Assembly: GCA_003218515.1 (NCBI GenBank)
Contig: QHNT01000275.1
Span: 1 to 38,309 of the forward strand
Reading direction: 5' to 3'
DNA: 38,309 bases
Source of the DNA: Verrucomicrobiota bacterium
GTDB taxonomy: Bacteria > Verrucomicrobiota > Verrucomicrobiia > Limisphaerales > AV2
Part shown: piece after piece, positions 2,210 through 34,368 of the stretch
Numbering within the stretch: position 1 is the first letter of the stretch
Layout: every line of letters starts with the position of its first letter
Position numbers and translations under genes: made by a program
The notes under the pieces: generated by a model
Told to the model about the DNA's origin: nothing
The model's database searches: none
What the model saw: only the letters and a program-made list of their open reading frames with translations

Positions 2210-2385
2210 CTAGTACGACAACACGGAGATTTCGTTACATCCCAAGGCTCCCGCCCGTCGCCAGGCCAGCAGGTAGGGCGCGTCACTCCGTGCGCGCCGC
2301 AGACTCGAATCTGTTCACCAAGCGGCGCGCACGGAGTGACGCGCCCTACCTGACAGACATCGAAATTTCTTTGTCACAGTACTAG
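2210..2385. mobile_element. MITE-like dispersed element, copy 1 (CTAG-flanked, TIRs, internal 30-bp-arm palindrome)
   Basis: CTAGTACGACAACACGGAGATTTCG...CGAAATTTCTTTGTCACAGTACTAG; inner arms 2271-2300 and 2322-2351 are perfect inverse complements around the loop AGACTCGAATCTGTTCACCAA. Second copy at 31563-31739. Confidence 0.85.
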
Positions 2386-3242
2386 CGGACCACGAGGTTT
2401 TGAACCCAGTTGCCCGGCTTCGTTTTGCCGATCCAAAACGCTTCGCCCACTCCAACCATGGGTGGATTGGAATCCCATTTTTTCGCATCGTATTCGTAAA
2501 TCACATAATTCTGGCGGTCGCGGTCAAACAGGTGGACCACGTCGCCTTCACTGATCGGGAAGCCGAGGTCTGAATGCAGCCGGCCTGGCTTGGGGATCTG
2601 CGAACTGCGAACAGAAAAACCGGCGGCAATGGGAAGCAGCAGATTCCCTTGCATCACTTCGCCGGTGAAGTTGATGTTCTTGAAGTCGGAACTCGGATTG
2701 AAAAAAATCGCGCCTTCGCCTGGCACGAGGGTCTCATTCGCGTTGATCCATTTGCCTGCCCTGACGGTGTTCTCGGTGAGTTTGAACAGGCGCGTGTCGA
2801 ACTTGTTGATCGTGGTGCCCTCGGGCGCGTCAGAGAGGATCGAACTGATGGTGTTGGACGGCGCCTGCAGCGGATTGGCGATCATCGAGTAACCTGGCGG
2901 CACGTTGATCGTGACGTAGCCAACCACGTTGTCGGAGAAAATCGCCTCAGCGAGCACGCGGTAAAAGCGATAACTGAACTTGGACGCCTCCGAGTCCACG
3001 TAATCGACCGGTTCGCCGCCGGATTTGCCCGCCGACACGGCCTGCCAGTTTTGCAGGTTGGAGGACACCTGGATTTCGTAACTGGCGCCTTTAGGAATCT
3101 GAAACTTGAATTGAAACGGGCCATACGGAAAGCGAACGCCGGAGTGCAAATGCGGAGGCACCAGGGCCGCCAGTTTGCTCTTTTTGCCAAACAAGCCCGT
3201 GATGGATTCACCCACACTGCCCAGAAAGTTCTTTGGGTCCAT
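2382..3242 (-). CDS. hypothetical protein
   Basis: 286 aa ORF with an F5/fibronectin-like beta-rich segment (YEIQVSSNLQNWQAV...YRFYRVLAE); no specific family recognised. Confidence 0.7.
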   Translation of the reverse strand: MDPKNFLGSVGESITGLFGKKSKLAALVPPHLHSGVRFPYGPFQFKFQIPKGASYEIQVSSNLQNWQAVSAGKSGGEPVDYVDSEASKFSYRFYRVLAEAIFSDNVVGYVTINVPPGYSMIANPLQAPSNTISSILSDAPEGTTINKFDTRLFKLTENTVRAGKWINANETLVPGEGAIFFNPSSDFKNINFTGEVMQGNLLLPIAAGFSVRSSQIPKPGRLHSDLGFPISEGDVVHLFDRDRQNYVIYEYDAKKWDSNPPMVGVGEAFWIGKTKPGNWVQNLVVR

Positions 3243-31562: not shown

Positions 31563-31739
31563 CTAGTACGACAACAGGGAGATTTCGTTACATCCCAAAG
31601 CTCCCGCCCGTCGCAAGGCTAGCAGGGCAGGGCGCGTCACTCCGTGCGCGCCGCTCGGGGAACAGATTCGAGTCTGCGGCGCGCACGGAGTGACGCACCC
31701 TACCTGACATGCATCGAAGTTTCTTTGTCACGGTACTAG
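31563..31739. mobile_element. MITE-like dispersed element, copy 2 (core inverted relative to copy 1)
   Basis: CTAGTACGACAACAGGGAGATTTCGTTACATCCC...CATCGAAGTTTCTTTGTCACGGTACTAG; loop TCGGGGAACAGATTCGAGTCT is the near-exact reverse complement of the copy-1 loop. Confidence 0.85.
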
Positions 31740-33895
31740 ATTTTCAACGCTTTCGGCGCCATTGGCAGCGAGCGCAGACGAACACCTGTGGCATCGCAAA
31801 TGGCATTGCCAAGTGCCGGCGCGATTCCGACGATGGGCGTTTCCCCCGCGCCGGTGGAGGGCAAATCTTTGCGGTCGAGCAATACGACTTCGATTTCCGG
31901 TGAGTCGCTGAACCGCGGCACGCGGTAGCGGGAAAAGCGCGGGTTCAGGATCTTGCCGTTGTCAAATCGGACCGCTTCGAACAGCGCGCCGCCCATCCCC
32001 ATCAGGATCGCCCCTTCGTTTTGGTTTTTCAGGTGGTCAGGGTTCAGCACGGCGCCGCACTCGAAGGCCTGTACGACGCGGACCACCTTGACTGTTCCGC
32101 CGACGCGGTCCACCGCGACTTCGGCGCAGGTCGCAACGTAAGCCCCTTTTTCAAATCCGCCCGCAACGCCGAAACCGTGATCGGGCGAAGGCTTGTTCTT
32201 TCCCCAGCCAAATGTCTTCGCCGCGGCCTCCAGCACGGCGCGCAGCCGCGCGTCCTGGAGATTTTTCAGACGAAATCCGAGCGGGTCGAGTTTGACCAGA
32301 CGGGCCAGCTCGTCGATATGCGACTCGCGCGCGAAGTGGTTCGCGGTGGACGCCAGCGCGCGATACGAACCCTGCCGTAACGGCGAGTGCGCCTGATGAA
32401 ATTCGGTCTTTTGGTTGGGAATGTGGTACAGCGCGCGGATGCCCGATCCGCCGGAGTTGTAGTTGTGAAATTCCCACGCCGTGATCGTGCCGTCGTCCTC
32501 GACGCTGCTGGTGATCTCGATCACCCCCGCCGGACGAAAGTACGCCCAGGTGAATTCCTCCTCGCGCGTCCAGACGAGCTTTACCGGTTTCTGTGCGGCC
32601 CTGGCCAGACGCGCGGCTTCCACGGCCGCTTCACCCGTGTGCTTGCCGCCATAACCGGAGCCCGTGTCGGGCACGATAACGCGGACGCGCTCTTCGGGAA
32701 TGCGAAACGCCTGCGCCAGCTCGCTTCGCACGCCAAAAGGACGCTGCGTGCCGGTCCACACGGTAAGCTGGTCTTCCTTCCACTCGGCCACAGCAGCGCG
32801 CGGTTCAAGCGGCGCATGGGCGACGTAAGCAACGGTGTAAGTTTGCTGAAGCTTGTGCTCGGCCGCAGGCGGTTTGTCTTCGCTTGAATCAGGTTTTTGA
32901 GCGATGGAATCGCCGCTCCGTTGCACGTCGGCCGATTTGCCCTTCAGATGGTCGAAGAGTTCGCTGTCGGAGATTTGCGGCGCGGTCTTCCACTCGGCGC
33001 GAATCGCGGCGATGGCCTGCGCAGCGAGATGCTCGTTCGGCGCGGTCACACCGACAAATTCGCCATCGCGAACCACCGTGACGCCCGGCATGGCTTCGGC
33101 CGGCTTTGCGTCCAGCGAGGCGAGCGTTGCGCCGAACGCGGCGGGCCGAAGCACTTTTCCGTGCTGCATTCCGGGGACCTGAACGTCCGGCGTGTATTTG
33201 TGCTTTCCAGTGACAAAATCTCGCCCGTCAATTTTAGGAACAGGCGTGCCGGCAACTTTCCATTCGACTGCGGGAGTTGTGTTATCGGCGACTGTTTTTG
33301 TCAGCTTCCGGCCGCTGGTCAATTCGCCAAAGCCGACCGATTGCTTCGTCTCGGAATGGACGATTTTGCCGCTGGTTGCGGCGAGCGATTTTCGATCCGC
33401 CTGCCATAATGCGGCGGCCAGATCGATCAACACTTCGCGCGCCGTCGCGGACACCTTGCGAAGCTGAGCCGCCATATCAGGCGTCGTGCGACTGCCGAAC
33501 GTCCCGGCGTCGTACGGCGTCAATTCGGTGTCGGCCATGGTCAAGCGAATCGAACTGATCGGAACGCGCAGTTCCTCGGCGACAACTTGCGTGAGTGACG
33601 TGCGAATGTTCTGGCCCACTTCGACCTTGCCGGTGAAAACGGTCACCTGGCCGTCCTCGCCGATGTGCAGCCACGCTCCAAGCTCCTGCGGACGACGTTG
33701 ACCAAAGCCGCCGCGCCGTCGGCCACCGCCCGACTCCTGCGCCGCGACTTCCTCGATCAGTAAAAGGACGACGACACCGCTGCCGAGGACTTTGAAGAAG
33801 TCGCGCCGCGCCAAATCGAAATGATAAACCGGCGCCGCGTGGAGTTCGTAGCGCTCCGCCTCGAACGAACTGTCGAGAAGCAACGGCGCTTTCAT
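31736..33895 (-). CDS. xanthine dehydrogenase/aldehyde oxidase-family molybdopterin-binding subunit, Tat-like signal
   Basis: ARRDFFKVLGSGVVVLLL leader; GKVEVGQNIRTSLTQVVAEELRVP, TGTQRPFGVRSELAQAF, GSGYGGKHTGEAAVEAARLARAAQKPVKLVWTREEEF. ATG 33895 inferred. Confidence 0.88.
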   Translation of the reverse strand: MKAPLLLDSSFEAERYELHAAPVYHFDLARRDFFKVLGSGVVVLLLIEEVAAQESGGGRRRGGFGQRRPQELGAWLHIGEDGQVTVFTGKVEVGQNIRTSLTQVVAEELRVPISSIRLTMADTELTPYDAGTFGSRTTPDMAAQLRKVSATAREVLIDLAAALWQADRKSLAATSGKIVHSETKQSVGFGELTSGRKLTKTVADNTTPAVEWKVAGTPVPKIDGRDFVTGKHKYTPDVQVPGMQHGKVLRPAAFGATLASLDAKPAEAMPGVTVVRDGEFVGVTAPNEHLAAQAIAAIRAEWKTAPQISDSELFDHLKGKSADVQRSGDSIAQKPDSSEDKPPAAEHKLQQTYTVAYVAHAPLEPRAAVAEWKEDQLTVWTGTQRPFGVRSELAQAFRIPEERVRVIVPDTGSGYGGKHTGEAAVEAARLARAAQKPVKLVWTREEEFTWAYFRPAGVIEITSSVEDDGTITAWEFHNYNSGGSGIRALYHIPNQKTEFHQAHSPLRQGSYRALASTANHFARESHIDELARLVKLDPLGFRLKNLQDARLRAVLEAAAKTFGWGKNKPSPDHGFGVAGGFEKGAYVATCAEVAVDRVGGTVKVVRVVQAFECGAVLNPDHLKNQNEGAILMGMGGALFEAVRFDNGKILNPRFSRYRVPRFSDSPEIEVVLLDRKDLPSTGAGETPIVGIAPALGNAICDATGVRLRSLPMAPKALKI

Positions 33896-34368
33896 TTTGC
33901 GCCTCCCGAGGTGGCCGCGGCGCGCTGGATGGCCGCGATGATCCGCGGATAAGTGCCGCAACGACAAATGTTCCCCTCCATGGAACGAACGATGTCTTCC
34001 CGCGATGGGTTCGGGGTCCGCCTCAGCAGCGCGACACCCGACATAACCATGCCCGCTGTGCAGTAGGCGCATTGCATCGCGCCGATTTCAAGAAATGCTT
34101 CCTGTAAGGGATGCAGCCGCCCGTGTTGTTCCAGCCCTTCGATGGTGATGATTTTTTTCTGCCCGACCTTTCCGACCTGAGTAAGGCACGAGTGCGTGGG
34201 TGTGCCCTCAATCAAGACCGTGCAAGCGCCGCACTGGCCTTCGCCGCACCCGTATTTGGCGCCCGTCAGGTCGAGGTCATCCCGCAGGACGCTGAGCAGA
34301 CTGCGCTCGGAATCGGCGTCCACTCCAAGCGTTTTGCCGTTGACGTGAAGTTCAGTGACCTTCGGCAT
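33892..34368 (-). CDS. (2Fe-2S)-binding subunit of Mo-hydroxylase
   Basis: YGCGEGQCGACTVLIEG, MQCAYCTAGMVMSG, EGNICRCGTYPRI; 4-bp overlap with the Moco subunit. Confidence 0.92.
   Translation of the reverse strand: MPKVTELHVNGKTLGVDADSERSLLSVLRDDLDLTGAKYGCGEGQCGACTVLIEGTPTHSCLTQVGKVGQKKIITIEGLEQHGRLHPLQEAFLEIGAMQCAYCTAGMVMSGVALLRRTPNPSREDIVRSMEGNICRCGTYPRIIAAIQRAAATSGGAK

Follow-up and report, generated by a model that had tools for sequence, protein, structure and literature searches.

A REP-like dimer nested in a MITE-like shell carries its spacer in both orientations in a Verrucomicrobiota genus

Introduction

The stretch of DNA analyzed here, 38,309 nucleotides of a contig from an uncultured Verrucomicrobiota bacterium of soil (QHNT01000275.1; hereafter the window), holds two copies of a short palindromic element, of 176 and 177 bp, whose outer parts point the same way and whose central segments read in opposite directions. 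This raises the question of how the core of a repeat can turn around with its surroundings left in place, and whether the event is particular to one copy or common to a family. We address it by comparing the two copies with each other, with the remaining copies of the genome and with orthologous loci in related genomes.

Results

Two copies with opposite cores

Both copies lie where the original prediction had placed them, with their shells in a common direction (Table 1). The core of copy 2 had been described as the reverse complement of that of copy 1 with about two changes; read from the opposite strand, the copy-2 loop is AGACTCGAATCTGTTCCCCGA, which differs from AGACTCGAATCTGTTCACCAA of copy 1 at exactly two positions. 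The copy-1 arms, described as perfect inverted repeats of 30 bp, are indeed 100% complementary but extend over 31 bp, while those of copy 2 measure 29 nt. Folded as single-stranded DNA, the copy-1 palindrome reaches −48.8 kcal/mol, and the hairpin is far from what chance would give, as its z-score is −13.5 and none of 200 shuffled sequences was equally stable. An Rfam search of the window returned no match.

Table 1. Positions of the element copies, their parts and the adjoining genes in the window
Feature	Positions	Strand	Remarks
Copy 1 of the MITE-like element	2210–2385	+	Loop in the commoner orientation
Copy 1, left shell	2210–2269	+	Starts with CTAGTACGACAACACGGAGATTTCG
Copy 1, left hairpin arm	2270–2300	+	GTAG-type REP-like unit, partner 1 of the head-to-head dimer
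Copy 1, loop	2301–2321	+	21 nt, AGACTCGAATCTGTTCACCAA, orientation F
Copy 1, right hairpin arm	2322–2352	−	Fully complementary to the left arm; second partner of the dimer
Copy 1, right shell	2353–2385	+	Terminates in TTTCTTTGTCACAGTACTAG
Neighboring 286-aa ORF	2382–3242	−	No Pfam match; TAG stop falls within the right-end CTAG of copy 1
Copy 2 of the element	31563–31739	+	Loop inverted
Copy 2, left hairpin arm	31626–31654	+	
Copy 2, loop	31655–31675	+	21 nt, TCGGGGAACAGATTCGAGTCT, orientation I
Copy 2, right hairpin arm	31676–31704	−	93% complementary to the left arm
Neighboring 778-aa ORF	31736–34072	−	Molybdopterin cofactor-binding domains; TAG stop falls within the right-end CTAG of copy 2

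The inner hairpin is a head-to-head REP-like dimer

Each arm is a REP-like unit, made of GTAG followed by GGCGCG-T-CAC TCC GTGCGCGCC. In the predicted fold of the arm the tetranucleotide is unpaired, and GGCGCG.CAC/GTGCGCGCC forms a stem with one bulge (−10.2 kcal/mol, z −3.6). The pair of arms is a head-to-head REP dimer resembling the REPINs, with a GTAG-type tetranucleotide and an imperfect palindrome in each unit and two inverted units that, together with a spacer, make up one hairpin.

That this inner palindrome is an element separable from the shell had been part of the original prediction, and it is indeed present outside the shell across the order. A search of relatives with the whole element gave matches in 23 of 58 genomes (the window's own included), beyond the genus mostly in the hairpin part; the dimers found there have other loops and mostly lack the shell of the window element. 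The arm is spread over numerous families of the order, where the loops vary and the dimers have either no shell or other shells. A 27-nt exact arm pattern was found in at least 118 stretches of a genome contig collection, and the record titles among the matches listed all refer to Verrucomicrobia or groups within it, a few being labelled Akkermansia muciniphila by the submitters. The shell pattern had no match in this collection, which may omit the window genome or those very near to it.

In a genome of another family (G032), dimers of this kind are carried by a shell unrelated to that of the window element, GTTCTCATTTTG...CAAAATGAGAAC. Only one of its 26 scored copies (L165) is flipped, and it belongs to a subfamily with matching arms; the larger subfamily, with mismatched arms, has no flipped copy. 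In another genome (G028), copies with a common right flank occur in both orientations, as judged by eye. As a side observation, the loci of G032 (L137–L165) make up another MITE-like family, whose ends are GTTCTCATTTTG/CAAAATGAGAAC and which seems to be flanked by short duplications.

Divergence from the consensus amounts to 1.5% of sites in the arms and 10% in the shell, and one copy (L015) carries the same substitution in both arms, a single concordant case where 0.06 would be expected by chance. The low divergence of the arms fits their homogenization but could equally reflect selection for the arm sequence, concordant changes in both arms being so few.

Both loop orientations occur across the family

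To place the two window copies among the rest, we searched the window's own assembly (G000; 490 contigs, 5.9 Mb) with the element, obtaining 79 matches, many of which were the two orientations of one hairpin. The matched loci were extracted and laid out in shell orientation before the direction of the loop was scored. Among 26 scorable copies, 19 have the loop as in copy 1 (F) and seven as in copy 2 (I), so the inverted core of the window is not a one-off, a point that the original prediction had proposed to settle by this very count. The ratio was two F to five I in a sister genome of the same genus (G001) and one F to zero I in a further one (G004), as read from contigs of draft assemblies, those of G001 and G003 being apparently metagenome-derived.

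The junctions between shell and hairpin, ...AGCAGGGTAGGG on one side and CCTACCTGACA... on the other, are identical in F and I copies. Of the causes put forward in the original prediction, independent insertion of the inner element is therefore disfavored as the source of the two orientations, and inversion across the arms is the one that gained support, from an orthologous pair of loci described below. The same junctions bear on the idea that a Y1 (RAYT) transposase excises the REP dimer and re-inserts it, sometimes reversed. The arms do have the GTAG plus imperfect palindrome form of RAYT-linked REPs, and Y1_Tnp genes are present in G000 (11 profile matches) and in relatives. Nevertheless, the junctions bear no trace of re-insertion, and a genome with many arms (G045) has no Y1_Tnp match. 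Moreover, within about 1.5 kb of the Y1_Tnp loci fetched from G000 and relatives, which lie on fragmented contigs, no arm-like sequence was found except a poor match with six errors (L126), so that in these loci the same REP does not flank the RAYT gene as it does in REPINs. We consider re-insertion by a RAYT highly improbable.

An orthologous locus with its core inverted in place

Orthologous insertions among the same-genus genomes were found by comparison of their flanks. At one of them, L014 in G000 and L080 in G001, the flanks are collinear on both sides and a 23-nt core is an exact reverse complement, CAGACTCGAATCCGTTCCCCGAT in the former being ATCGGGGAACGGATTCGAGTCTG in the latter. Since these 23 nt are exactly reversed between flanks that stay collinear, the core was flipped in place. 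The 23 nt comprise the loop plus one arm base that is mispaired with the opposite arm, and this base was flipped too, as a crossover within the arms predicts. A second orthologous pair with opposite cores, L032/L081, is weaker evidence for a flip: its two loops fall into separate sequence classes, and a piece of the right arm is missing from L032, so that this core may instead have been replaced by that of another copy. L014/L080 is the only clean flip within one loop haplotype. Six further orthologous pairs have the same orientation: L010/L077, L007/L082 and L023/L089, together with L030/L092, paired by flank comparison plus inspection of the sequences, and L035/L093 and L090/L095, both paired by eye from matching flanks. 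Between closely related species, the core of at least one copy has changed direction without leaving its site.

As these orientations were read from contigs, we considered whether they could be set by the assembly, given that a short-k assembler could not orient a 21-nt loop between identical arms of 30 bp and would leave its direction arbitrary. The assemblies are drafts; contigs of G001 and G003 have sequence in common with QHPA01, from isolate AV4, and QHPW01, from isolate AV2, the sample labels match the Angelo soil study, and some assemblies of that study, the apparent source of both genomes, used a minimum k of 30, which equals the arm length (PMC6784897). Against this, reads in that study were trimmed to 200 bp and k ran from 30 or 40 up to 200, or started at 41, as it did for sample 14_0903_13_30cm (AV2) (PMC6784897). 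An artefact of loop orientation is unlikely, because such reads singly span the 82-nt hairpin, at k up to about 200. In addition, orientation is tied to loop haplotype (in groups formed post hoc, see below), which is not expected if it were random, and G032 has just its one flipped copy. Altogether, we regard an assembly artefact as very unlikely.

Inversion between inverted repeats is also the hallmark of invertible switches, in which case a dedicated invertase would flip the core for phase variation. Both orientations do occur at one locus in L014/L080, here between species and not within a population. On the other hand, the invertible piece is only about 21–23 nt long, the copies are dispersed over many contexts, and the arm sequence varies between the genomes that show flips. 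Within 2100–2500, around copy 1, we found no promoter-like site (0), and the 21-nt loop gives no sign of being the promoter or coding segment that such a switch would turn. Site-specific inversion by a dedicated recombinase, one of the causes named in the original prediction, gained no support here, and a phase switch is, in our opinion, barely credible.

Evidence for more than one flip

We then examined how often the core may have turned. On a tree of the shell alone, parsimony gives eight orientation changes (8–9 in bootstrap replicates), and the hypothesis that all inverted copies form one clade is rejected (AU p = 0.010); once the loop is added, this hypothesis is no longer rejected (AU p = 0.12), both trees being built on about 100–140 columns and weakly resolved. 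Orientation clusters weakly on the tree, 35–49 of 500 shuffles being equally low. It is also associated with the loop itself, as a TTCCCCGAGCGG-like class has nine I and three F copies versus three I and 19 F among the remaining loops (Fisher p = 0.0006, for groups formed post hoc with the alignment already seen).

This association and the weak clustering are what one would expect if a single old inversion had given rise to an inverted subfamily that spread by transposition, with the opposite orthologs produced by ectopic gene conversion. The differing loop haplotypes of L032/L081 would fit such a conversion, and G001 has a potential donor in L078, which is inverted and of the loop class of L080. 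Nevertheless, the core of L080, once reverse-complemented, matches that of its ortholog at every position, one clade is rejected by the shell-only data, and no fewer than three loop classes contain inverted cores, all of them with forward copies or near relatives as well. We therefore judge a single old inversion rather unlikely. Taken together, the trees and haplotypes point to more than one flip, plus some inheritance of orientation within subfamilies.

The shell resembles a MITE

The shell contributes about 95 nt of unique sequence. Its termini are CTAGTAC...GTACTAG, and CTAGTAC(cgt)GACAA... recurs at either end as an imperfect terminal inverted repeat. Its 26 scored copies in G000 are short (about 175 bp when complete), non-coding, dispersed over varied contexts and have common ends, as MITEs do. 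Bacterial MITEs with TA or CTAG targets include IS630-type and Correia-like elements. The shell is like them in being short, non-coding and dispersed, with terminal inverted repeats and ends at CTAG, and differs in that no full-length IS with its ends was found: in five same-genus genomes none was recognized by end pattern, and G000 had no match to the IS630-type DDE_3 domain (PF13358). Two IS630-type DDE_3 genes are present in G001 (L366 in C337 and L367 in C25), 75% identical over 1.16 kb; each has a single CTAG near one border, and the adjoining sequence differs from the shell. The two genes may be related to whatever factor mobilizes the shell. As the parental transposase was not found, membership among the IS630-type MITEs is a lead only.

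CTAG is scarce in the window: there are nine sites (18 over both strands), and the ends of the two copies account for four. Many copies in the family have CTAG or TA at both ends, and the orthologous empty sites are too diverged to show a target duplication. At both window copies, comparison with empty sites shows that the neighboring minus-strand gene stops at the C-terminal position where its counterparts in relatives do; for the 286-aa ORF this holds in G001, G002 and G003. Seven element ends, in six copies, have a CTAG in which TAG terminates an open frame of at least 140 codons, versus 12 of 128 CTAG in the same loci, a baseline that includes the elements themselves; the frame at the left end of copy 1 overlaps other ORFs. 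An enrichment of insertions at stop codons is suggestive only.

Several loci depart from the common structure. In L083 (G001:C90, about 1849–2088), a long insert with another palindromic repeat (CCCTCACCC...GGGTGAGGGG) replaces the hairpin loop, one repeat being nested in another. L020, L032 and L081 have a differing left end, GG..CATCTCAGTTTCTTGCAA, beside the hairpin, suggesting that their shells may be chimeric or replaced. In L037 (G000:C299:8431–8502), a single arm is adjoined by a variant left shell, CTAGTACCGCGACAAATGAGTTTCGTTACG.

Discussion

The reading that we find probable is that the element is a REP dimer riding in a MITE-like shell, and that its spacer inverts by template switching or recombination between the near-perfect arms. 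The outer layer is a MITE-like shell whose terminal inverted repeats end in CTAG, and the inner layer a head-to-head dimer of GTAG-type REP-like units, with a 21-nt spacer in a near-perfect hairpin of 29–31 bp. The spacer would invert in place when replication switches template between the arms or a recombination crossover falls between them; with the event limited to the arms, neither shell nor flanks would turn. Flipped copies would then be inherited, and some were probably copied onward together with the shell. The two orientations in many copies, the in-place inversion at one orthologous locus, the opposite cores at a second and the separate existence of the dimer are seen in the sequences; that the molecular event is template switching, that the shell transposes and that the flip has no regulatory purpose we infer. 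Homologous recombination between the arms gives the same product, so the two routes are indistinguishable by sequence.

A wider and more tentative idea, which we hold as possible, is that the Verrucomicrobia REP dimers are self-inverting repeats, in which exchange between the arms preserves the palindrome and turns the spacer, making them two-state elements independent of a transposase. If so, the state of each dimer would be set by replication events at its hairpin. The family offers a natural bacterial system in which inversion of the spacer of inverted repeats can be counted in dozens of copies as well as at orthologous loci, and it is relevant to the long-term upkeep of near-perfect arms in REP dimers. 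Moreover, the direction of the loop in hairpins of this kind makes a poor phylogenetic character and may mislead the classification of repeats.

The original prediction knew of no named element of this design, which is only partly right. The parts of the design have been described separately, nested REP dimers on the one hand (PMC3733652) and spacer inversion on the other (PMC8604942), and it is their combination that is new. In yeast coding sequence, intermolecular template switching between the arms of inverted repeats is reported to homogenize the arms and to invert the spacers, reversibly (PMC8604942). As in the window element, the segment between matching arms flips, the flanks stay fixed and the event recurs; the yeast cases involve short spacers in coding sequence, whereas here a bacterial repeat family has a 21-nt spacer, arms of 29–31 bp and many dispersed copies. 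The small inversions associated with palindromes in chloroplast DNA are reportedly similar, in that the inversion takes place between arms, with fixed flanks, and recurs (PMC2903610). GTAG repeats have been recorded in Opitutus terrae, a member of the Verrucomicrobia (PMC3116915, PMC3733652), and REP dimers that lie within longer palindromes are on record for A. variabilis and H. neapolitanus (PMC3733652). REPINs and head-to-head dimers of GTAG REPs share with our element the inverted GTAG units, the spacer and the predicted hairpin (PMC3116915, PMC3733652). Unlike REPINs, the dimer described here lies inside a MITE-like shell, was found with no RAYT gene adjoining it and has its spacer in both orientations; the words "inversion" and "flip" are absent from the main text of the REPIN paper. 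The processes are known, and what is new here is a REP dimer within a MITE-like shell caught inverted at an orthologous locus.
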